Shown piece after piece: positions 37,501-49,367 of a stretch of DNA of 64,000 nt. The stretch is from Candidatus Latescibacterota bacterium. GTDB taxonomy: Bacteria > JAAXHH01. The first letter of the stretch is position 1, and each line of letters opens with the position of its first letter. The position numbers were made by a program, and so were the translations under genes. The notes beneath the pieces were generated by a model. It ran no database searches and had not been told where the DNA came from. It worked only from the letters and a program-made list of their open reading frames with translations. The stretch spans positions 62,001 to 126,000 of the forward strand of contig JAJEAN010000001.1 of NCBI GenBank assembly GCA_022822725.1. Reading direction: 5' to 3'.

Positions 37501-38946
37501 TCAACGCCATGCACTACCAATCCCGTCGCCAGTCACGTGATCGAGTTCGGCCAGCGAAACCCGGTACTGGTACAGCGCCTGCCGGTGCGCATGCTGCATC
37601 TTCGCATGCGCGGTAAAGGCGTCCAGCAGTTCCGAACTGTCTCCGGTAACGTCGAAACCCAGTTGGGCCGATGTCAACCATCCCCTGGCGGAACGAAGCG
37701 CCCGGTCGCTGTTGACCACGTTGGTACGAGCCTCGATTACGTCGCGGTAGGTCTGCTCCACCTGCAGCGCGACCGCGCCTATCGCCTGGGATTCCCTGCT
37801 CACCAGTGCTTCCAGCTCCACTTTCCGTGCAAGGTACTTGGCGCGCGTAAGGCCGAAATTGAAATTCTGGCGCAAAGTAATCACGGCACCGCCGCGAAGG
37901 AAATTGAATTCGTCCCTGAGAAATGGGTTGTCGAGCTCCGGCCGGTGTGGCGCGATGCCCCACTGGAGGGACCCCGCCAGGGCGATCTGGGGGTAGAAGT
38001 CGCTCCTGGCTACCTTCAACAGCGCCCGGCGGGCCAGCACGCCCGCCCTCAGCTGCCGGATGTCGTACCGCCGGTTCTTTGCCCGTTCTATGTAGACGTC
38101 CAGTTCTTCGAAGGCGTCCGGTTCTTCGAGGTCCGCCGATTCGGTTCCCGCGGCCGTATGGACGATATCGAAATCGCTGGAGCGATCGATTTCGAGTATG
38201 GTCTTCAACGCCGTCTTGCCCATTTCGATCGACTTCTCGGCCCGCGCCCGGCTCTGGAGCACTTCGAATTCAAAGACATCGATTCTCAACAGGTCGTTCT
38301 GGCCGACGTCTTCCGAATCCTCCTCGATCATCTCGTTTACGCGGTCACGGGCCTCCTGGACCTTTTCTTCGCTTTCCAGGATGATGTCCCTGAGTTCCCT
38401 GGCCAGCACGAGCCCGTAGAACAGCTTCTTCACCTGGAACGCCACGTCGATCTTCCGGGATTCAACGGCCGCTTCGCCCGCTTCGAGACCGTATTCGGCC
38501 GCCTTCTTCGCGTTACTGAGCTTTCCGAAGGTGTATATAGGCTGGACCAGTTCGATCTGCGTGCGAGAGAAAACGCCAAGATCGGTCAGGTCGCTCCGGA
38601 TGGTCTCGATCTTTTCCGTATCGCCCTCTATGCCCGGCGCGGGACCGAAGATATTGGTCCACTCCAGCCGAGGGGTGATGCCGGCGAATCTCGCCTCGCT
38701 CAACCTGGCTTCCAGGCCTTCGACGGCAATGACCGCCTGTTCGATGTCCGGACTGACCCGCAACGCGCGGTCCACGCACTGGTCCAGCGTCATCCGGACA
38801 ACCGGTACAGCCGGGACGGCCGGGTCAACCTGATCAGCCTGGGCGGTCCGGACGGGTCCACTTGGGGCCTGCGCGAATACCGGCCCCGTGAATACCGGTC
38901 CCGCGATCAGCGATCCCGCCAGGATCTGGGCCAGAAATCGAATCAC
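37501..38946 (-). CDS. TolC-family outer-membrane efflux protein
   Basis: A 481-residue protein from a GTG at 38944-38946 with GGGAG 5 bp upstream; an upstream GTG would add 11 charged residues before the signal peptide. The signal ends PVFTGPVFA, its last part itself a short repeat. The mature protein has two related long-helical halves with TolC features: MTLDQCVDRALRVSPDIEQA, IYTFGKLSNAKKAAEYGLEAG (split by a turn), QLRAGVLARRALLKVARSDFYPQIALAGSL (likewise) and LVSRESQAIGAVALQVEQTY. It would form the outer-membrane exit duct. No RND or MFP partner is encoded nearby, so it is presumably fed by the cluster's own transport step. Confidence 0.9.
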   Translation of the reverse strand: MIRFLAQILAGSLIAGPVFTGPVFAQAPSGPVRTAQADQVDPAVPAVPVVRMTLDQCVDRALRVSPDIEQAVIAVEGLEARLSEARFAGITPRLEWTNIFGPAPGIEGDTEKIETIRSDLTDLGVFSRTQIELVQPIYTFGKLSNAKKAAEYGLEAGEAAVESRKIDVAFQVKKLFYGLVLARELRDIILESEEKVQEARDRVNEMIEEDSEDVGQNDLLRIDVFEFEVLQSRARAEKSIEMGKTALKTILEIDRSSDFDIVHTAAGTESADLEEPDAFEELDVYIERAKNRRYDIRQLRAGVLARRALLKVARSDFYPQIALAGSLQWGIAPHRPELDNPFLRDEFNFLRGGAVITLRQNFNFGLTRAKYLARKVELEALVSRESQAIGAVALQVEQTYRDVIEARTNVVNSDRALRSARGWLTSAQLGFDVTGDSSELLDAFTAHAKMQHAHRQALYQYRVSLAELDHVTGDGIGSAWR

Positions 38947-39195
38947 GTTGTCTCCCGCTTCTCGCAGACGTCGTCTCACCTTGAAGGTCGACGCGCCGAA
39001 AATGCAAGCACACCGATATCGACGACGCGCCGTAATCGCCGGACCTCAGTGATCACCGACGCGCCGTATTCGCCGGCTCGCAATACGAATCAACCCAGCG
39101 TAATCGCAAACGCACGCATGTTCAAGTTTATTAGACGCAACTATCCACTTATTGATCCAACAAATAGTGATGGCTGATCCATCTACGCAGCGGAA

Positions 39196-40470
39196 TCAAG
39201 ACCTGTCCGCCGACGACGGTTGCGACAGCAGCCAGATCGCCCGCGTCCAATGGAACGCCGCCGTTATCACCGTCCATATGGCCACACAGGTGAACGCTTC
39301 CTCCAGCATCCCGACCGCCAAACCCGCGAGCAGCAGCAGGACGTTTGTGTTTCGCCGGGCGCCGATACGGCGAAAGAAGCGGTCCACGGGCGCGTAGTCA
39401 AACAGTTCTTTACCTTGCCTGGACTTGAACATCCCTGTGGCCGCCTTGTCAAGCAGATAGAACAACGTGATCACCGTGGCGAGCACAAAGGGACCGGCCA
39501 CCTCGCCGCCGGCACTGAGCATCCACCCCAATGCCCAGTACCAGGTCAGTTCCCAGACCACGTCCAGGATGTGTTCGTAACGGTCCCCGAACCGGGTGCA
39601 TCGCACCGTCACGCGGGCCAGCTTGCCGTCTACGCCGTCCAGTACCCCCACGATGAATGCGATGACCAGTCCGGCGGCCAGGTATCCCGTTCCCATCTGC
39701 CCCGCGGCCAGGAGCCCGGTAGTCAGGAAGGCGAGCAGTATGGAGAAAGTGGTAACATGGTTCGGTGTCACGGAACTGGGCGAAATCCATTTCGTAAGCA
39801 GGTTCTCCAGGGGCGGATGGATGAATTCAGCCGGAAAATCCAGCGTACCCTTTTGCGCGGCGTCGGTAAGCAGGGCTTCCGCCCGGTGGATCTTCCGGTC
39901 CGAATCGACGACCAGCCACCAGGGGGGGAGGCTTCGGCGAAGATCCACGATATAGGGATCCATTTCGCGCAGGTCGAATACCGGACAGGTCGACTCCTGT
40001 GCCGAGTCCAGCGCAGACCAGAGCGACTCGGAGCCGGACCAGGACGCCGTGAGCCCTGCGAGGAAGTCGCCGTTGGTCACCAGCAGCCTGCAGGATTCCC
40101 TGGCCGCCGAGTCCACGGCTCGCTGGATCGATCCGCCGTCGATCAAGGCCCTCAATACCCGCGGGTCGTAAAGGTGTCCGGCGTCCATGACCAGTGCCTT
40201 TTCGTCCTCCCCGGGCAGCCAGCGGGCGGGGCTTTCGTCCGTCCGCACGTAATCGACGGCGGCCAGTTCCCGGTACCAGCGATCGTCGAATCCGTCGCCC
40301 CGTACGTCCGGTCCCTGCCCGGACGAAGGTCCGACAACCGTGACCTGCCGTGCCCCCAGGGAAGCGAATACCCGGAGGTGCCGCTCCAGCAGCGAAATGC
40401 CGTAAATCGACCGGCCGGCGCCGGCCGCCGAGGCTTCCGTATCCGCGAACAGGACTACGCTGAAATTCAT
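39196..40470 (-). CDS. Degenerate nucleotidyltransferase fused to CDP-alcohol phosphotransferase
   Basis: A 424-residue protein from the ATG at 40468-40470. Residues 1-210 have a nucleotidyltransferase-like order of strands (VVLFADTEAS...QVTVVGPS...KALVMDAGHLYDP) but lack the GGxGxR and PKP catalytic motifs, so this half is probably inactive or binds only. Residues 225-424 are membrane helices with the CDP-alcohol signature: D281-G-K-L-A-R286, eight residues, G295, three residues, E299, three residues, D303. The third signature Asp is Glu299, an unusual change. The enzyme family joins a CDP-activated alcohol to a phospho-acceptor. It pairs with the complete fusion at 42886-44337, suggesting two different acceptor steps. 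Confidence 0.8.
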   Translation of the reverse strand: MNFSVVLFADTEASAAGAGRSIYGISLLERHLRVFASLGARQVTVVGPSSGQGPDVRGDGFDDRWYRELAAVDYVRTDESPARWLPGEDEKALVMDAGHLYDPRVLRALIDGGSIQRAVDSAARESCRLLVTNGDFLAGLTASWSGSESLWSALDSAQESTCPVFDLREMDPYIVDLRRSLPPWWLVVDSDRKIHRAEALLTDAAQKGTLDFPAEFIHPPLENLLTKWISPSSVTPNHVTTFSILLAFLTTGLLAAGQMGTGYLAAGLVIAFIVGVLDGVDGKLARVTVRCTRFGDRYEHILDVVWELTWYWALGWMLSAGGEVAGPFVLATVITLFYLLDKAATGMFKSRQGKELFDYAPVDRFFRRIGARRNTNVLLLLAGLAVGMLEEAFTCVAIWTVITAAFHWTRAIWLLSQPSSADRS

Positions 40471-40565
40471 TGCCAATGGTTCTCCATATAAATGAAGCCC
40501 GGAGTCTGGGCTTCTCTTTCTTTCCCGGTGCGCGACCATTCTTTTTCAGGAAAGAACATCTGGCT

Positions 40566-42119
40566 TCATGGTCCGCCCGGTCCGCCTGGTCCGCCTGGTC
40601 CGCCTGGTCTGCGCAGGCGCCGAAGGGCGATCCGGTCATCCTCTTCCAACCCCAGAAGACCCAGTACGCCCAGGTAGGCGGCCAGGAAGATCGTGGGCAG
40701 CGCGGCCATGCGCAGCCACGGGAATTCCGGCGCGTAGACGCCCGCCAGATAAGCGCATGCGAAGGCGGGTACTGCCGCGGCACAGGGCTTCAGGATGCGC
40801 CAGGACAGGGGAAGGATCCGGAACAGATGATACACTTCGGCCAGCCGGATCAGCGTCAACAGCCCAAAGGCCGCCAGCGTTCCCAGGGCGGCGCCCAGGA
40901 TACCCAGGGCTGGTATCAGCCAAAGGTTCAGGACAAAATTTACCGCCACGACCGCGACCGTATTCACGAGATTCAGCCAGGGCCGGCCCGACATGATGAG
41001 CACAGTATCGCCCGAACCCATGGCGGAATAGACGACCTGGCTCATGGCCAGGACGACCATCGTCATGAATCCCGCGACGAATTCGGCTCCAAAGAGTCCG
41101 AGCAGTTCATTTCCGACCAGTGACACCACGCAGAGGAACGCCAGGCCTATGGTCAGCACCCACCGGGTGACCAGCCGCAGATTGAGCTCAAGCCGCCGCA
41201 GGTCGTTGCGATGATTCAGTTCGGCCACGATGGGGCTGAAAACGGGGTCGAACCACTGGCGGACTTTCTTGGTCACCAGGGCGATCTCAACCGCGATTAC
41301 GTAAATGCCCACCTGTGCGGCCGGCAGAAAGTAGCCGACCATGAGCACATCCAGCCGGATCATGAACATATAGACCAGTTCATAGCCCATGACCGGCAGC
41401 GAGAAGCGGGTCAGCGGGGTGACGGCCCGCAGCGCACGCAGGTGTGCGAGGCAGGCCCGCCAGGAATAGAACCTGGTGAATATGTAAACGGCGTATAGCA
41501 GGCCGCAGGCCAGCGCGGCCAGGTGGGCGGCGGCGATACCGTAGGTGCGCCAGCCCGCGTAGAACAGGACACAGGCCGCCCCGAACAACACGAGCGGCTC
41601 GACGGCGCCCCGGACCATGGCGTCGTGCTTCATGACCTTGTGCGCCCGGGTGACGCCCAGGATGATCTGGGTCAGGGCGATGAGCGGCAGGCCGATCGCC
41701 AGCAGTCGCAGCATGCCGGTGAGACGGGGCTTATCGAGCAGGCCGTCCGCCAGCGCGGCCGCACCGGCGTAGAGCGCGGCGCCGATCCCCGCGCTCAGCA
41801 GCAGACCCACGCCCAGGGCCTGGGCGATGGTCCGGTGGATGGCCTCCGTTTCCCCGTCCTCGCGCATGCGCGGGATGAAATTGACCAGTCCCTTGTCCAG
41901 CGAGAACTGGCCGACCTTGGACACGAGGTCCACGATGGTCCACCCGAGCATGTACAGCCCGAAGATCTCGGCACCGAACAGGCGCGTAAGGACGATGAAC
42001 GATACGGACTTGATCAGCCGCGCTACCGTTCCGATGAAATTGACGGCCGCGCCCCGGGCGATCGTCGATGCGTCGGATGGGGACCGGACCGGATCCGGCC
42101 GCTCCTGGGTACGCGTCAT
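40566..42119 (-). CDS. Polysaccharide/lipid-linked flippase, MOP superfamily
   Basis: A 517-residue integral membrane protein from the ATG at 42117-42119, overlapping the methyltransferase stop as ATGA. It has about 12-14 hydrophobic helices and the N-terminal pattern of Wzx/RfbX-type oligosaccharide flippases (ARGAAVNFIGTVARLIKSVS...LTRLFGAEIFGLYML). Such proteins move lipid-linked sugars or lipid intermediates across the inner membrane. The position between two CDP-alcohol phosphotransferase fusions makes the cluster's own product the obvious cargo. The C-terminus is RRPGGPGGPGGPGGP, coded by 9-bp tandem units that run to the stop codon. Confidence 0.87.
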   Translation of the reverse strand: MTRTQERPDPVRSPSDASTIARGAAVNFIGTVARLIKSVSFIVLTRLFGAEIFGLYMLGWTIVDLVSKVGQFSLDKGLVNFIPRMREDGETEAIHRTIAQALGVGLLLSAGIGAALYAGAAALADGLLDKPRLTGMLRLLAIGLPLIALTQIILGVTRAHKVMKHDAMVRGAVEPLVLFGAACVLFYAGWRTYGIAAAHLAALACGLLYAVYIFTRFYSWRACLAHLRALRAVTPLTRFSLPVMGYELVYMFMIRLDVLMVGYFLPAAQVGIYVIAVEIALVTKKVRQWFDPVFSPIVAELNHRNDLRRLELNLRLVTRWVLTIGLAFLCVVSLVGNELLGLFGAEFVAGFMTMVVLAMSQVVYSAMGSGDTVLIMSGRPWLNLVNTVAVVAVNFVLNLWLIPALGILGAALGTLAAFGLLTLIRLAEVYHLFRILPLSWRILKPCAAAVPAFACAYLAGVYAPEFPWLRMAALPTIFLAAYLGVLGLLGLEEDDRIALRRLRRPGGPGGPGGPGGP

Positions 42120-42889
42120 GATGGGGGATGCACCGGTCCGGAGGTCATCCTGTCCGCTTCGATCAACAGGGTCCAACCCCGTTGGTTCCCGGTGAACAGG
42201 TTAAAGACCGCGGATACCAACCTGCCGGCCGTTACCAGCCCCAACCGGATCACCGCCGCCGGAACCGCGTGCATGCGCTCCGTGGCGTAGCTCAGTCTGA
42301 TCAACGCCAGGTCCAGCCGGGAACGAAGCAGGTATCGGTGTCGGGCCAGCCTGAATCCACAGGACTCCAGCAACGAGCCGACCGAGGGGTGCGTGTAGAA
42401 CTGCAGGACGCTGTGGCGTTTCCGGTGCGCGTCGCGCCACGGCTCGCTGATCTCCTCGAGGCTCAGGCTGTCCAGGGTCAACAGGATGCGTCCCCCGGGC
42501 CGCAACACGCGCCACATCTCGCGGAGCGTCTGCCGGTCGTCCGGCAGGTGCTCGAAGACACACAGGCTCATGACCGTGTCGAACTGCCCGGAGCGAAGGG
42601 GGAACGCGTCCGAATGGGCGCAGACGAAACCCGTGAAGGGCGTCTTGTGGTGGACTCGCGCGCGTCGCAACTGCTTCCGGTCCAGGTCGAATCCGTATAC
42701 CAGGGCGCCCCGCAGGGCAACCCGGTAGTCATAGGTCCCTTCTCCGCAGCCGATATCGAGAATACGCTCGCCCTTGCGCGGCTTCAGCCAGCGTAACGCG
42801 GGAACCGTTTCCTGGGTCCTGCGGAAGTTGAAGTCCTTCCTGAGCCGGAGGGCGAAGAGTCCCCTTGCACGGTGCAGCAACCCGCTCAT
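42116..42889 (-). CDS. Class I SAM-dependent methyltransferase of the envelope cluster
   Basis: A 257-residue protein from the ATG at 42887-42889. The ATG overlaps the stop of the upstream fusion gene by 4 bp (ATGA), and its own stop overlaps the flippase start in the same way. The open frame further upstream to 43738 is only a shadow. RILDIGCGEGTYDYRVA is SAM motif I, GFDLDRKQL motif II, TVMSLCVFEHLPDD motif post-I, and LRPGGRILLTLDSL motif III. The C-terminal third (LDLALIRLSYATERMHAVPAAVIRLGLV, with a break) is hydrophobic and may lie on the membrane. It probably methylates the lipid-linked or phospho-alcohol intermediate. Confidence 0.88.
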   Translation of the reverse strand: MSGLLHRARGLFALRLRKDFNFRRTQETVPALRWLKPRKGERILDIGCGEGTYDYRVALRGALVYGFDLDRKQLRRARVHHKTPFTGFVCAHSDAFPLRSGQFDTVMSLCVFEHLPDDRQTLREMWRVLRPGGRILLTLDSLSLEEISEPWRDAHRKRHSVLQFYTHPSVGSLLESCGFRLARHRYLLRSRLDLALIRLSYATERMHAVPAAVIRLGLVTAGRLVSAVFNLFTGNQRGWTLLIEADRMTSGPVHPPS

Positions 42890-44337
42890 GAGCTCAAATC
42901 CCCGGCCACCGTCCGGTCCCGCGCCAGCAGCCTCTTCGTCGAAACACATATGGCCAGTCCCATGGCCAGGCCGCCGGCCGTAACGGTCCAGAACATCCAG
43001 CTCAGCAGGTCGAGGGCGGCGAAACACAGCAGCAGCATGGTAAAGAAATCTCTTTTGGCCATCATCCTGAACAGGTTGAGCATTCTGGCGGCGAGGCGGC
43101 GCCGCCGCCCGGCGGCGTGCTCTCCGAAGGCCCGGTTGAACCGGACCAGGCTGCCGCTCCCGCCGGTCTGCAGCAGATAGTAGTACATCACGAGCATCGA
43201 AGCGGCCACCACGGCGACGGATCCCAGTCCGAGAAACCGGATTTCCGTTTCCCCGGAGCCGCCTGCGTAGGCCCAGACCACGGCCGCGAAGAATGCCAGG
43301 TAGGTCAGGTTGTCCGTGATGGTGTCGAGCCACGAACCGTATTTCGATTCGCGGTAGGTCAGCACCGCCACCTCCCCGTCGCATCCGTCGAGGATGGACG
43401 AGAACTGGAACAGCAACGCACCCAGCAGCACCGGCCAGTAGGTGCCGTCCAGCACGAACCACGCCCCGGCCAGGCCGGTGAGGAATGTGACCAGGGTCAC
43501 CATGTTGGGGGTGACCGGCGTCCGGACCAGCCATCGGCTGATGCGGGTCGAAACCGGCCGGTTGATATACCGGGATACCCAGCCATCGGTGGGTTTTACG
43601 AGGCGTCCCAGCAGGGCCTTTTCGCCCTGGGCCAGCATCTCGGGCGTATCCACGTCCTGCCAGTAGCCGTCGCCCACGTCGAAGGCCCGCATCCGCCCTT
43701 CCGCGGCAAGCGCACGGATGCCGTCGCTCAACGCACAACCCTCCGGTCCGTCCACGGTATCGAGGGCGTCGAACAGGGCCGGCGTACAGAGGAACATGCC
43801 GGTGTCGACCGCGTTGTACGCTTGCAGAGCCTTGTCGATGCGCACCACTTTATCCCCGCGCACTTCGACCTTGGTCGCGTCGTCCACGTCGTACACGCGG
43901 TCGATTTTCCGGTCGATGGCGAGCAGGCACTCGTCCTCGGCCACCGGTTCCTCGAGCAGACGCTCCAGCGTCCGCTGCTCGAAGAGGTGATCGGCCATGA
44001 GCAGCACGAACGGTTCGGCCAGGCGGGAACGGGCGGCCAGGGCGGAAACCCCGTTGGGCAGATGCCACCGTTCGTTGTGCACCCATTCGATTTCGAGGGC
44101 GTCCAGGCCGGGATCGTTTGAAAGGACCTCGTGAAATCGGTCCGCCTCGTACCCCGTTACGATCACGAATCGCGTTACGCCGGCCCGAGCGGCCGTCAAA
44201 ATGATCCGCTTGATCAACGGCAACCCGCATAACTTCATCAGGGGTTTGGGCACCGGGCCGGTGACCGCCTGCAGGCGCACACCCGCGCCGCCGGCGATGA
44301 TGAGCGCCGGGGCCGCTCTTCTGTTCTGATGATCCAT
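42886..44337 (-). CDS. Nucleotidyltransferase/CDP-alcohol phosphotransferase fusion, IPCT/DIPPS-like
   Basis: A 483-residue two-domain protein. Residues 8-240 are an intact nucleotidyltransferase: IIAGGAGVRL, PVPKPLMKL, LLMADHLFE, and DVDTPEM near the end. Residues 270-480 are a membrane CDP-alcohol phosphotransferase: SSILDGCDGEVA, then G334, D338 and D342. The order and the DGCDGE motif match bifunctional CTP:inositol-1-phosphate cytidylyltransferase/di-myo-inositol-phosphate-phosphate synthases of thermophiles. The normally invariant Arg of the DGxxAR signature is Val325. The likely reaction is making CDP-inositol (or a similar CDP-alcohol) and transferring it to a phospho-acceptor. No inositol-phosphate synthase gene lies in the window. 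It starts 40 bp after the M56 gene. Confidence 0.83.
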   Translation of the reverse strand: MDHQNRRAAPALIIAGGAGVRLQAVTGPVPKPLMKLCGLPLIKRIILTAARAGVTRFVIVTGYEADRFHEVLSNDPGLDALEIEWVHNERWHLPNGVSALAARSRLAEPFVLLMADHLFEQRTLERLLEEPVAEDECLLAIDRKIDRVYDVDDATKVEVRGDKVVRIDKALQAYNAVDTGMFLCTPALFDALDTVDGPEGCALSDGIRALAAEGRMRAFDVGDGYWQDVDTPEMLAQGEKALLGRLVKPTDGWVSRYINRPVSTRISRWLVRTPVTPNMVTLVTFLTGLAGAWFVLDGTYWPVLLGALLFQFSSILDGCDGEVAVLTYRESKYGSWLDTITDNLTYLAFFAAVVWAYAGGSGETEIRFLGLGSVAVVAASMLVMYYYLLQTGGSGSLVRFNRAFGEHAAGRRRRLAARMLNLFRMMAKRDFFTMLLLCFAALDLLSWMFWTVTAGGLAMGLAICVSTKRLLARDRTVAGDLSS

Positions 44338-44377: not shown

Positions 44378-46264
44378 CTAGAAGATCGCGGAAAAGCCCA
44401 GCGTCATCTCCGGGTAAGGACGAGAGATGACATCCAGTTCCTTCCGGTAGGATGCCTGCATGACCACGGCGACGTGCCGCTCCCAGAAGTAACGCAGCCC
44501 GACCCCGGCGTCGATCATGGTCATGTTCCGGTTCTGAGGCCGAATCTCCAGGCCGGCGCCCCATCCGAAAAAAGGTGTGAATGAATCGCCCGGAACGAGC
44601 AGATTGTACCGGTAGAAGGCACCGATCCGGGTGATCCGTTCGGCCTGTTCTTCCCCTGCGGTCTCAAGTATCGTCTCCTGCGCCGACGAGGTCTCGAAAC
44701 CGGCCAGCCTCCGGGCTCGAAGGAGGGACCCGCCGTACGGGGCGCCGGAAGGCTGCTGTGTATCTTCAAAGGCTTCCGTGTCGTTGGGCTGCCGGATGGA
44801 AAACACGCCGCCGAACTGGTGGGTCGGTGTAATGAAATAGCCGGCGCTCAGGGAGACCGTGCCGGGATCGAACAGCTCGTTGCCGGTCCGGCCCACGCCC
44901 TGCACCTCGATACGTCCCTGCCTGGCGTGGTTCCCCGTCGATAGCGTCCGATCCGGGATGACCGGGGCGGCGGCATGTCCGAGCACGGCGGGGTTGATCC
45001 GTTCGCGCTCCGTGGATTCGAGCATCCCGTCCCGGGGAAGTACAACCGGTTTCGTCATCATGGCGGCCATGGATCTGCGCGGCGCGGGCCGACCGTCTAC
45101 CATGGACCGGCGATCGACTTCCCTTTCAGGCGGCAGGGATTGGTCTGCGACCAACGCAACCTGCGTCGCCGGATTGGATCCTTCACGATGTTGTGCACCG
45201 GACGCCGAATCAATCCGGAAGGAAACCGCCGGTTCGGCAGGCATGCCCGTCCGCGGCGGAACGGGCGCGTCTCGGGGGACCTCGACCGCCGGACGCAACA
45301 GGGGCATGACCGCGATCAGCGAGCAGATACCGGCGGCCAGCAGCGGGAAGAAGGCGCGGTCCTTCCGGCTCGCGGTCGGACCGAGCACGTCCCGGATACG
45401 CTGGGCCGCCATGGAGGCCGACTGCGCCAGTTCGAGGGCGGCCTGCCATTGCGTCCGGATCCTGCCCGTGGCTACCTTCAACAGAGTGGAAGCATAGCAC
45501 TCCGGCTGCCTGGAAACACGGACGACGTCCGCGTCGCAGGCCCGCTCCGCCTCGATCCCGGCTCGGTGCGCGGCGTACCAGACCGCCGGGTGGAAGAAAA
45601 AGAAGAACCTGCTGAACTGGACCAGGTAGACCGTAAGGTGATCCCGCCGGGCATAGTGGGCCAGTTCATGAAGCAGGACCTGTCTCAGTTCCGCGCTGGA
45701 AAGCTCCAGGATGCACCAGGAGGGGATCACGACGGTGGGACGCCCGGCGGCGATCAGGACGGGCACTTCGAACTCATCGGAGACCCGCAGGGCCACGTTG
45801 CGCTTCAAGCCCGATTCGGCCAGGCAGCGGTCGAATAACGCGCTTACCCGGGGGACGGCGACCGGGACCGACCGCCGCCGTCTACGGGTCATGGTGATGA
45901 CCGATGAAACTATGCGGTACAGGCCGAATCCGGCGAAGCCCATCCATACCAGACCCGCGACGGTGTAGACTCCGGATGCCGGGGCGTTGTGACCGCCCGC
46001 GGCGGACACGCCGTGGCTCGCCATCGACGCCCACGGTATTTCGAACGGTCCATGCCAGGGCAGCACGAGGGTCAATAGCGGTTTGGCCAGAACCAGCAGC
46101 CAGAGGAAGTGCCGTATCCTGGCTGGGCATCCCGGGTTCACGAACAGCAGGATCCATACCAGCACACCCAGCAGCAACGCTTCAAGGCTCGGTAGCCACA
46201 ACAGGCCTGCGACCTCCCGGCCGAACCGCTCGAAGAAGCCTACGGCGTAAACGGTATCAAGCAT
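44378..46264 (-). CDS. M56 (BlaR1-type) membrane metallopeptidase fused to a beta-barrel-like domain
   Basis: A 628-residue protein. Residues 1-325 are an M56 peptidase: hydrophobic segments near 22-42, 50-70, 98-121 and 306-325, HELAH (His199, Glu200, His203) and the downstream EAERACDAD that supplies the third zinc ligand. In BlaR1/MecR1 such a domain triggers loss of the BlaI/MecI repressor when a signal binds outside. Here the outer part is not a penicillin-binding domain. After a polar linker of about 120 residues, residues 446-628 are alternating strands (TVSLSAGYFI, TRIGAFYRYNLL, FFGWGAGLEI, MIDAGVGLRYFW, AVVMQASYR) ending in TLGFSAIF, like an outer-membrane barrel. Its start overlaps the repressor gene by 8 bp. 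Confidence 0.82.
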   Translation of the reverse strand: MLDTVYAVGFFERFGREVAGLLWLPSLEALLLGVLVWILLFVNPGCPARIRHFLWLLVLAKPLLTLVLPWHGPFEIPWASMASHGVSAAGGHNAPASGVYTVAGLVWMGFAGFGLYRIVSSVITMTRRRRRSVPVAVPRVSALFDRCLAESGLKRNVALRVSDEFEVPVLIAAGRPTVVIPSWCILELSSAELRQVLLHELAHYARRDHLTVYLVQFSRFFFFFHPAVWYAAHRAGIEAERACDADVVRVSRQPECYASTLLKVATGRIRTQWQAALELAQSASMAAQRIRDVLGPTASRKDRAFFPLLAAGICSLIAVMPLLRPAVEVPRDAPVPPRTGMPAEPAVSFRIDSASGAQHREGSNPATQVALVADQSLPPEREVDRRSMVDGRPAPRRSMAAMMTKPVVLPRDGMLESTERERINPAVLGHAAAPVIPDRTLSTGNHARQGRIEVQGVGRTGNELFDPGTVSLSAGYFITPTHQFGGVFSIRQPNDTEAFEDTQQPSGAPYGGSLLRARRLAGFETSSAQETILETAGEEQAERITRIGAFYRYNLLVPGDSFTPFFGWGAGLEIRPQNRNMTMIDAGVGLRYFWERHVAVVMQASYRKELDVISRPYPEMTLGFSAIF

Positions 46265-46736
46265 CCGTTACCTCCGGGTTCGATTCCGACGCGTCCGACG
46301 ACTCCGAGGCGTCCTGCGATTCCGACGCGTCCGACGACTCCGACGCGTCCGACGACTCCGCGGCTATCCGGTCCAGCAGTTTGCGCAGGCTTTCGGCTTC
46401 TTCCGCGGTCAAGGCATCCGATTCGATCAGGTGCAGCACCAGGGACTGCGATGATCCGGCGAACAACTTGTCCACGACGGCCCGGACGGTCTCCCGGCGC
46501 ACGCCCTCGGGTTTCAGGATGGCGGTGTAGACATAGGCCCGGCCTTCGCGGGTATACCGGACGACGCCTTTCTGCGTGAGTATGGTCAGGACCGTTTGAA
46601 CCGTGGTATACGCCAGGGGACGCTGGTTTCGAAGCGAATCGACAATCTGGCGCACCGTCGCCCGACCCAGCCGCCAGACGACGTTCATGATGTCGATTTC
46701 CAGGTCCGTCAAAGACGAAAGTTTCTTTCTCGCCAT
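46257..46736 (-). CDS. BlaI/MecI/CopY-family transcriptional repressor
   Basis: A 159-residue protein from the ATG at 46734-46736, with GGGGA 9 bp upstream; an ATG three codons earlier and a GTG further up are less well placed. LTDLEIDIMNVVWRLGRATV and LAYTTVQTVLTILTQKGVV form the winged helix typical of BlaI, followed by the dimerisation helices. The last 25 residues are SDASES repeats from tandem DNA. BlaI proteins dimerise on palindromes and are inactivated when an M56 partner is triggered. The M56 partner overlaps this gene by 8 bp. An AT-rich inverted repeat lies about 80 bp upstream. Confidence 0.9.
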   Translation of the reverse strand: MARKKLSSLTDLEIDIMNVVWRLGRATVRQIVDSLRNQRPLAYTTVQTVLTILTQKGVVRYTREGRAYVYTAILKPEGVRRETVRAVVDKLFAGSSQSLVLHLIESDALTAEEAESLRKLLDRIAAESSDASESSDASESQDASESSDASESNPEVTDA

Positions 46737-46815
46737 CCGATCCATTCCCCGGTTTGCCACTCCGATGCTTCGGAGCGCAAGGTGTTCGCACGCTGCGGTT
46801 GCGGCCGAAGATTTC

Positions 46816-46852
46816 GTTAGTTAAATATATGCCCTATTGTATTTTAATTAAC
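46816..46852. promoter_or_regulatory. Candidate BlaI-type operator between the repressor gene and lpxH
   Basis: GTTAGTTAAATA (46816-46827) and TATTTTAATTAAC (46840-46852) form a 12-13-bp inverted repeat with one mismatch and one unpaired base, spaced by 12 bp. The site lies in the only AT-rich patch of the 207-bp divergent region and covers possible -35/-10 elements of the repressor gene. BlaI-family operators are palindromes of this size. Binding by this repressor is inferred. Confidence 0.6.
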
Positions 46853-46943
46853 GCGCGCACGTCTTTATGTCAATCCAAAGTTAAACCCCCTGGATCCTCG
46901 GGAAACCGGCGTTTGCCGGCCTGTTTCCGTCCTGGTGCCTGAT

Positions 46944-47699
46944 ATGAGTTCTGAACCTGTCTACTTCATTTCCGATGCCCACTTCGGAGTCGACGATTAC
47001 GGGGCGGAAGAAGAGAGAAGGGACCGGTTGCTGGGATTCCTTCGAAGTCTCAGGGGCCGTACCGGTCATCTGTATATCGTGGGCGATCTGTTCGATTTCT
47101 GGTTCGAGTACCGCACCGTGGTGCCTCGACAGCATTACACGGTGCTTCACGCGCTGAGTTCGCTGGTCGAAAGCGGCGTCCGGGTAACCTACCTCGCGGG
47201 AAACCACGACTTCTGGCTGGGGACCTTCCTGGACGAGCAGGTCGGTGTGGTAACGGCCCAAGGCCCACTGACCGTTACCCATCACGGCCGGAAAATCTAT
47301 ATCGCCCATGGTCACGGACTCATATCCAGGGACCTTGGATACCGCCTGCTTTCGAAGATCATGCACAGCCCCTTAAGCATACGCCTGTTTCAGCTGATCC
47401 ACCCGGACTGCGGCTTCAGGATCGGCCGCCTGGCATCACGGCTTAGCAGGCGCCACGGAAAACTCACGGCGTGGGATCCGCGGGAAGCTTACAGGGACCT
47501 GGCCTTTTCACTGCTCGAACAGGATTACGATGCGGTGGTCTTCGGGCACAACCACTGCCCGACGCTGGAGCATAAGGAGGACAAGGTCTATATCAACCTG
47601 GGAGACTGGCTGGAGCACGACACTTATGGCGTGTTGCGCGACGGGGAAATGACCCTGGAACGGTACGTGGTCGCGGGGAATAAGCGCGGAACAAAATAA
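46944..47699 (+). CDS. lpxH: UDP-2,3-diacylglucosamine diphosphatase, LpxH type
   Basis: A 251-residue calcineurin-like phosphoesterase. It carries the metal motifs in order: FISDAHFG, VGDLFDFWFEY, LAGNHDFWLG, IAHGHG and VFGHNHCP. GDLFDFWFEYR is characteristic of LpxH, especially of Bacteroidota-type homologues, which cleaves UDP-2,3-diacylglucosamine to lipid X in lipid A synthesis at the inner membrane. The ATG at 46944 is chosen over a GTG 9 bp earlier; neither has a strong ribosome-binding site. It is divergent from the BlaI-type repressor and shares its control region. It indicates that the organism makes lipid A. Confidence 0.85.
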   Translation: MSSEPVYFISDAHFGVDDYGAEEERRDRLLGFLRSLRGRTGHLYIVGDLFDFWFEYRTVVPRQHYTVLHALSSLVESGVRVTYLAGNHDFWLGTFLDEQVGVVTAQGPLTVTHHGRKIYIAHGHGLISRDLGYRLLSKIMHSPLSIRLFQLIHPDCGFRIGRLASRLSRRHGKLTAWDPREAYRDLAFSLLEQDYDAVVFGHNHCPTLEHKEDKVYINLGDWLEHDTYGVLRDGEMTLERYVVAGNKRGTK

Positions 47700-47999: not shown

Positions 48000-49367
48000 C
48001 TATTCAGGCTCGTTGATCATGATCGGAGCCAGTGGTAAATCCTCGGCGCCTGCAATCGATACCACCAGGTACGCCGTACCATGACCTGCAATCCAGTCGG
48101 TATCGATGACTATCGTCCCGAGCGCGTTGGCGACCGTAGCCGGAGTAGCATTGTCGGGAATGGCGATCACCTCCGGGTTCTGGCTTCGGACCGTCGCCGT
48201 CACGGTTTCGTCATTGTTTGAAGTCTTGCCGTCCGGACCGACCTTCAGCACCTGAATTCGAAACTCGATGTTTACAGCAGGCGCAACGGCCCTGGCCACT
48301 GTTTCATCGACGTCAGTGGTGGCCGGATCGTCCACGACGGCAGAGGTAAGGGTCCTTGTACGTTGTGCTTCGCTGGAGGGGTAGGGATTCATCACGTACC
48401 TGATGACACCGGTACCGCCAGCGACGGTGACCGCGATCTTGGCCTTGGACGTAACGCCCTGTCCCTGGGCCGTGATCTCGGCTTTGCCTCGGCCTTCCGC
48501 CGTGATCGTGTTACCGTCCACGCTGACTATGTCGGGATCGGAACTTACCCAGTCAATCAGCGCTTCGGCGCCGTCGATTACGTCGCCGTCTTCTTCCTCA
48601 TTGTAGGCAACGGGAGTCATAAGTTCGATCGAACCGCCGACCGGCAGCACATAAGAGGTCGCCTGGTCCGAAGCGAACTCGATCCGCCTGATCAGGTCGA
48701 GCACTTTGATGGTCAGGTCGATTTCCACACCTCTTCCGACAGCGGAAACCGTAACCGTCGCCTTGCTGGTCGAAGCCACGGCGTCGATGGCGCCCCCGTC
48801 TACCGAAACGGCGTCTGAATCGGAAACCCAGTCGAACGTGATGGGCAACGCCACACCGCTCTGGCTGGCGGCCTTTGCGGTGATCATGGTCATATCGCCC
48901 ACGGCCATGATCAGGTCCATGGCGTTTTCCGTACCTTCCCTGAGTCCATAATCAGGCGCGTCGAACACGGCGATCTTCTTGTCGTTACCGTCCTGCATCA
49001 GCTTGATGTGATGTATGTCGGACAGCACGCCGCTACCGATGATCTGATCCGCGTCGATGCCCTCGCCCTGGGGTCCCTGGGGACCTTGCGGGCCGGCAGG
49101 ACCGGCGGGACCTTCGGGACCGGCGGGACCGGCGGGACCGGCGGGGCCTTGCGGACCGGCGGGACCCTGATCACCCTGGTCGCCCTTGGGACCTTGCGGG
49201 CCTTCGGGGCCTTGCGGACCGACCGGACCTTGAGGACCGGTAGAGCCGGCTACGCCCTGCGGACCGGCTGCGCCCTGAGGACCGGTAGGGCCGGCGGGGC
49301 CTGTCTTGCCTTCGCATCCCATCACGGATAGCGCGAACGCAATCACAATAACTATGAGGTAATGCAT
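48000..49367 (-). CDS. Collagen-like repeat lipoprotein with Ig-like domains
   Basis: A 455-residue protein. [18 protein letters not shown] is a lipoprotein signal with lipobox VMGC (Cys18). Residues about 21-104 are uninterrupted Gly-X-Y triplets ([23 protein letters not shown] and so on) able to form a collagen triple helix. Residues about 150-460 contain beta-sandwich modules with VTVSAVGRG and [15 protein letters not shown], resembling bacterial Ig-like (Big2-type) domains. The protein is probably a trimeric stalk on the cell surface carrying adhesive heads. Its gene stands alone with an AT-rich upstream region and a strong terminator, implying independent regulation. Confidence 0.88.

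Follow-up and report, generated by a model that had tools for sequence, protein, structure and literature searches.

A BlaR1-type M56 protease fused to an outer-membrane-type beta-barrel and encoded with a BlaI-family repressor: a candidate trans-envelope sensor

The window (the whole 64,000-nucleotide stretch of DNA that was analysed) contains a minus-strand open reading frame that runs from 46264 to 44378 and codes for a 628-aa protein composed of an M56/BlaR1-type protease, a linker and a C-terminal barrel. The original prediction had placed the gene at 44378-46264, coordinates that are right, with the strand now given as minus. The parts of the gene are as follows:

44378..46264, minus strand: M56-linker-barrel fusion protein of 628 aa (open reading frame; full length kept across the phylum)
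45299..46264, minus strand: residues 1-322, four predicted transmembrane (TM) helices and the M56 gluzincin domain, predicted N-out/C-out
45656..45670, minus strand: HELAH zinc motif, residues 199-203 (alignment against the BlaR1 residues of PMC9834060)
44924..45298, minus strand: linker, residues 323-447, polar, low-complexity and fast-evolving (identity, dN/dS, no confident structure)
44381..44923, minus strand: outer-membrane-type eight-stranded beta-barrel, residues 448-628, with a final Phe (AlphaFold2, Foldseek, weak TIGR04565 match)
44636..44791, minus strand: long variable loop that joins strands 3 and 4, residues 492-543 (pLDDT, length variation, dN/dS)

With respect to the N-terminal half, the M56 profile PF05569 matches residues 23-290 with an E value of 9.7e-35 (120.6 bits against a cut-off of 31), and the HExxH motif and downstream ExxxD of the M56 family are both present, with H199, E200, H203, E240 and D244 invariant. 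Specifically, an alignment of 15 sequences shows that H199, H203, E240 (the third ligand), D244, D208 and Y257 never vary, and these residues are the counterparts of BlaR1 H201, H205, E242, D246, D210 and Y261, respectively (PMC9834060). The sequence is hydrophobic at about 21-42, 53-70, 99-121 and 304-322; thus the HELAH zinc site and the membrane helices that had been predicted at the N-terminal end are there, the helices numbering four within the first 322 residues. Lys and Arg residues average 2.1 across the family in the loop after TM1, 0.3 in the TM2-TM3 loop and 4.2 in the stretch after TM3, a charge bias that predicts the N-out/C-out topology of BlaR1 and therefore predicts that everything after TM4, linker and C-terminal domain alike, is on the periplasmic side of the inner membrane. 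The N-terminal half of the full-length AlphaFold2 model is also matched by Foldseek to the BlaR1 cryo-EM structure 8exr (TM-score by target 0.64). The NF000326 (blaR1_generic) profile scores 81.8 bits, far below its 400-bit cut-off and over the N-terminal half only, and a Pfam profile search of the 628-aa protein found no penicillin-binding/transpeptidase domain. The membrane-protease part has a dN/dS of 0.17-0.31, indicating strong purifying selection, and this is the one M56 gene above cut-off in the genome.

The polar linker of about 120 residues that had been predicted measures 125 aa here and 125-164 aa in relatives, and is rich in Pro, Gly, Ser, Thr and Ala. AlphaFold2 assigns it no confident structure. 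Compared with the four most divergent members, the linker is 11-20% identical, the protease 54-59% and the barrel domain 31-45%, and the linker dN/dS of 0.35-0.75 indicates weaker constraint than on either of the other two parts. Two short motifs nonetheless stand out from this background, GRPxxRRS in most members and an AxLG-like one around 426-429, the short conserved stretches being located around 388-397 and 425-429; inspection by eye revealed no recognised signal-peptidase or lipoprotein site. From chain geometry, an extended linker of 125 residues could reach several hundred angstroms, more than a typical periplasm.

Structure prediction of the C-terminal domain, which had been proposed as a check, gave an eight-stranded barrel fold. 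The AlphaFold2 strands span residues 452-460, 470-477, 482-491, 544-554, 562-574, 581-593, 598-609 and 617-627. When the barrel was modelled alone the pTM was 0.64 and the pLDDT of most strands about 80-94; strands 3 and 4 are separated by a disordered stretch of roughly 45-50 residues with a pLDDT below 50. The underlying alignment is a shallow one of 15 sequences, 7 of which are >85% identical. In the full-length model, although its quality is low overall (pLDDT 46, pTM 0.27), the same eight strands appear. Foldseek matched the barrel model to OprF (E 1e-5, TM-score by target 0.77) and also to NspA, Ail, OmpA, OmpW and PagL, and the full-length model was matched to both outer-membrane barrels and BlaR1. 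OmpX is likewise among the Foldseek matches, whereas neither a lipocalin nor an avidin occurs in the best 50. The domain thus has eight antiparallel strands resembling solved OmpA/OprF/OmpX-type barrels, which bears out the proposal that a barrel-like module has replaced the sensor, the fold being of an eight-stranded outer-membrane type that matches OprF, NspA, Ail and OmpA.

By profile the barrel is much less conspicuous. The NCBIfam model TIGR04565 (OMP_myx_plus) matches it weakly (22.2 bits against a cut-off of 60, E 1.1e-4), a profile search assigned it no Pfam family, a comparison with PHROGs gave no match, and in 368 genomes from outside the phylum the barrel had no convincing relative, the matches having E values of 0.004 or weaker. 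Nor could the barrel be told apart from other tails by a simple strand-alternation score. Secondary short barrel-like matches in three genomes of the phylum (G001, G006 and G010) were rejected, as by eye they are antisense frames over a phytanoyl-CoA-dioxygenase-like gene.

Selection on the barrel is strong, with a dN/dS of 0.16-0.23 for the whole domain and 0.03-0.17 for the strands. The loop at 492-543 varies from 52 to 61 aa in relatives and has a dN/dS of 0.23-0.70; it is predicted to face the cell exterior. With a periplasmic N-terminus the outer-side loops are longer than the inner-side turns. The chain ends in Phe, as had been noted from the sequence, and this F628 is invariant in 15/15 aligned sequences, which is what a BAM client would be expected to show; at position -3 the final strand has Ala/Thr, not an aromatic residue. 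A BAM-type outer membrane is expected, given that LpxC and three Omp85-family proteins are encoded in the genome. From the fold, the final Phe, the loop asymmetry and the presence of Omp85 proteins, we infer insertion of the barrel into the outer membrane.

The fusion is not peculiar to this genome. A search for the same fusion in other genomes, a further check that had been proposed, found it in single copy in 16/16 genomes of the phylum, representing five genera and separate assemblies, at 34-100% identity. It is intact in 15 of these 16; in the remaining one, a 400-contig MAG, a frame change within the barrel, either a sequencing error or the mark of a true pseudogene, splits it (L053, at about 4638 of G009:C397). 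An independent scan of the genome collection also recovered the fusion in JAJEEG010000002.1 and two further records, apparently all among the same 16 assemblies (G005, G002 and G008). This conservation puts the fusion far outside what chance would give, and it decides against the idea that a chimaeric assembly or an annotation error brought together separate BlaR1 and OMP genes, an assembly error being one of the outcomes that the original prediction had named as undoing it. The unusual architecture is the sole point in favour of such an artefact, and we give it virtually no credence because all 16 independently assembled genomes carry the fusion. Profiles, AlphaFold2 and Foldseek together confirm that an M56 protease and an outer-membrane-type barrel are fused in one genuine chain.

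The genes surrounding the fusion are also conserved and consist of the following:

46257..46760, minus strand: blaI-family repressor (Penicillinase_R; PF03965, E 7.3e-33)
46818..46873, minus strand: probable promoter (TTGACA at 46873-46868) and conserved probable operator block (15-genome alignment)
46935..47699, plus strand: divergent LpxH-like UDP-diacylglucosamine diphosphatase (NF003743, E 7.7e-24, below the curated cut-off)
42886..44337, minus strand: nucleotidyltransferase and CDP-alcohol phosphatidyltransferase fusion (NF041135, E 2.4e-70, below cut-off)
42116..42895, minus strand: SAM-dependent methyltransferase (PF08241, E 1.2e-21)
40566..42176, minus strand: Wzx/MOP-type flippase (PF13440, E 3e-18)
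39196..40539, minus strand: second CDP-alcohol phosphatidyltransferase (PF01066, E 4.9e-8)
37501..38979, minus strand: TolC-like outer-membrane efflux protein (PF02321, E 2.4e-38; syntenic)

The blaI gene overlaps the start of the protease gene by 8 nt, lies upstream of the fusion in 16/16 genomes and is the single BlaI match in the genome; the locus thus shares with BlaR1/MecR1 systems a co-encoded BlaI/MecI-family repressor. The C-terminus of this BlaI (46257-46380, minus strand) is a low-complexity SSDASE repeat whose length and composition vary among relatives. In regards to the region upstream of blaI, the 15-genome alignment shows no exact classical BlaI operator (TACA/TGTA). The full 34-mer operator block (46818-46851), which is strongly conserved in the genus, occurs once in the genome, which is weak evidence on the regulon. 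Outgroups share a CTACTA-N6-TAGTT-like dyad upstream of blaI that in some of them overlaps a TTGACA box, versus a probable operator of TTAATTAARATACA...CATATATTTAACTA in the genus of the window. This difference suggests operator turnover for the same BlaI, as judged from the aligned promoters.

Where contigs suffice, the gene order is kept as lpxH-like, blaI, fusion, nucleotidyltransferase/CDP-alcohol phosphatidyltransferase, methyltransferase, flippase, second phosphatidyltransferase and TolC-like. The lpxH-like gene is adjacent in every genome with enough contig, and the nucleotidyltransferase gene, whose product resembles inositol-1-phosphate cytidylyltransferase/DIPP synthase, comes after the fusion in 16/16 genomes. 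One genome (G012) is an exception in that its cluster does not have the methyltransferase and has about 3 kb before TolC. The conserved operon contains no beta-lactamase, PBP or copper gene, and no sigma factor is found among the conserved neighbours. This arrangement, together with the region upstream of blaI, fits an autoregulated operon with a product destined for the envelope. The genome encodes one myo-inositol-phosphate (inositol-1-phosphate) synthase, and we would guess that the operon product is an inositol-type phospholipid or phosphoglycan, a guess because the enzyme family names score below curated cut-offs. Beyond the lpxH-like gene lies a lipoprotein-like open reading frame (48000-49367, minus strand) with collagen Gly-X-Y repeats (PF01391, E 3.3e-13).

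Computation directly establishes the fusion, the catalytic residues, the barrel fold, the co-encoded blaI and the conserved operon. The reading that we favour, and consider somewhat more probable than all others combined, is that of a dual-membrane-spanning sensor-protease that inactivates BlaI upon perturbation of its outer-membrane anchor and thereby derepresses its own envelope-lipid/glycan operon. The structural side of this reading is well supported, and we infer the functional side, namely outer-membrane insertion, BlaI cleavage, the nature and direction of the signal and the operon product. Specifically, the four helices and the M56 zinc site would be located in and under the inner membrane, from which the chain would exit TM4 into the periplasm on a flexible linker whose length suffices to traverse it. 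The eight-stranded barrel would be built into the outer membrane, its single long variable loop exposed outside the cell, and would take the place of the beta-lactam-binding sensor of BlaR1. With a barrel as the input module, what is sensed is probably the condition of the outer membrane or a ligand that binds the outer loop. A disturbance of the outer membrane, the barrel or the outer loop, for which tension, slack, mis-assembly or ligand binding are candidate triggers, would then be passed through the tether and TM4 to the protease. BlaR1 cleaves BlaI (PMC9834060), and by analogy the activated M56 domain should inactivate the co-encoded repressor and so derepress the operon, the enzymes of which might supply the envelope with an inositol-type phospholipid or phosphoglycan by making and flipping it.

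Several other readings of the same chain were weighed. The protein could be a cleaved two-in-one, in which the linker is cut to give an inner-membrane M56 protease and a free outer-membrane barrel, with release or failed assembly as the signal and no lasting bridge. The long fast-evolving linker offers two short conserved stretches as possible cutting or docking sites, and BlaR1 itself is cut during signalling (PMC9834060). However, the linker has no signal-peptidase or lipoprotein site recognisable by eye, separate products would not need a fusion kept throughout the phylum, and the Dma proteins carry the same kind of tether (PMC13088901); we thus regard cleavage as unlikely, though it is the strongest of these competitors. 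More doubtful is a barrel that stays periplasmic as a lipocalin-like or decoy beta-domain, binding a lipid or a chaperone of unassembled OMPs and signalling like the soluble sensor of BlaR1. With this arrangement the inner-membrane insertase and BAM would not both have to handle the one chain, and AlphaFold2 coordinates alone are no proof of membrane insertion. Against it, the Foldseek matches are transmembrane outer-membrane barrels rather than lipocalins or avidins, the strands are 8-13 residues long, a single outer loop is long and the terminal Phe never varies. We consider it improbable that the M56-BlaI pair answers to a conventional signal, such as an antibiotic or a metal, with the barrel as a passive anchor. 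Such signals have precedents in BlaR1, which senses beta-lactams, and PetP, which senses copper (PMC9834060, PMC7896320), but here there is no penicillin-binding domain, the barrel strands are under strong selection and the conserved operon is devoid of beta-lactamase or copper genes.

In Staphylococcus aureus BlaR1 cleaves BlaI and is also itself cut during signalling (PMC9834060). The likeness to BlaR1/MecR1 extends to the M56 gluzincin residues, four TM helices, the predicted N-out/C-out topology, an overlapping blaI-family gene and the Foldseek match, and the catalytic residues that BlaR1-type proteolysis of self and of BlaI would require are present. The difference is that BlaR1/MecR1 have a penicillin-binding sensor, whereas this protein has a 125-residue tether and an outer-membrane-type barrel in an operon that carries neither a beta-lactamase nor a PBP. 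The PetP/PetR pair of the cyanobacterium Synechocystis is likewise of the BlaR1/BlaI type (PMC7896320) and resembles the present system in joining a BlaR1-family protease to a BlaI-family regulator, with a non-antibiotic signal, in a host with an outer membrane. It differs in being copper-responsive, and PMC7896320 describes no barrel. The closest architecture is that of the Dma anti-sigma factors of Bacteroides, which consist of a TM helix, a long disordered tether and a C-terminal barrel and are described as restricted to Bacteroidota (PMC13088901). A cytosolic output, transmembrane part, tether and C-terminal barrel fold recur here, with one chain predicted to run from the cytosol to the outer membrane. 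The output modules are, however, unrelated, as in Dma proteins an anti-sigma domain, one TM helix and an ECF sigma factor as partner stand in place of M56, four TM helices and BlaI. The single chain bridging both membranes that the original prediction had called remarkable is therefore plausible by its predicted topology, and it is not unprecedented.

Two-membrane bacteria usually use several proteins to carry signals from the outer membrane to their genes, as in RseA/DegS, Rcs and TonB-dependent transducer systems. If the proposed reading is true, one chain bridging both membranes together with a repressor-cutting protease would constitute a minimal wiring, and the layout seen in Dma would seem to have arisen independently with an unrelated output. 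We judge the novelty to lie in the input, an outer-membrane barrel as sensor or anchor, which is joined to the already known BlaR1/BlaI output module and is fixed in the phylum; no description of an M56-barrel fusion was found in the literature searched. The further claim of a new class of trans-envelope signalling, in which a barrel is mechanically coupled to a repressor-destroying zinc protease with no partner proteins, controls a phospholipid/glycan operon and does so phylum-wide, seems to us evenly poised between true and false. The gene order suggests a role in balancing outer-membrane lipid supply, in a lineage known here from metagenome assemblies.

Among the families listed (25 of 103) for 55 M56 C-terminal tails from other phyla, TonB_C is the commonest (8), HEAT, TPR and STN also occur, and there is no outer-membrane barrel. 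The TonB C-terminal domain can reach outer-membrane proteins. M56-TonB_C proteins also have a periplasmic C-terminal domain, but it would contact the barrel of another protein, whereas here the barrel is in the same chain. One M56 protease in another phylum (L122, 1123 aa, G287:C1:558742-564289, minus strand) matches the Secretin domain over its C-terminal part (PF00263, E 1.5e-7, above cut-off) and, going by this domain match, may be a further case of M56 joined to the fold of an outer-membrane channel. Finally, two giant M56 proteins of 1537-1577 aa (L119 and L128, in G287 and G291) have long HEAT-repeat tails, and the C-terminal end of L128 is a SecDF P1-head-like domain.
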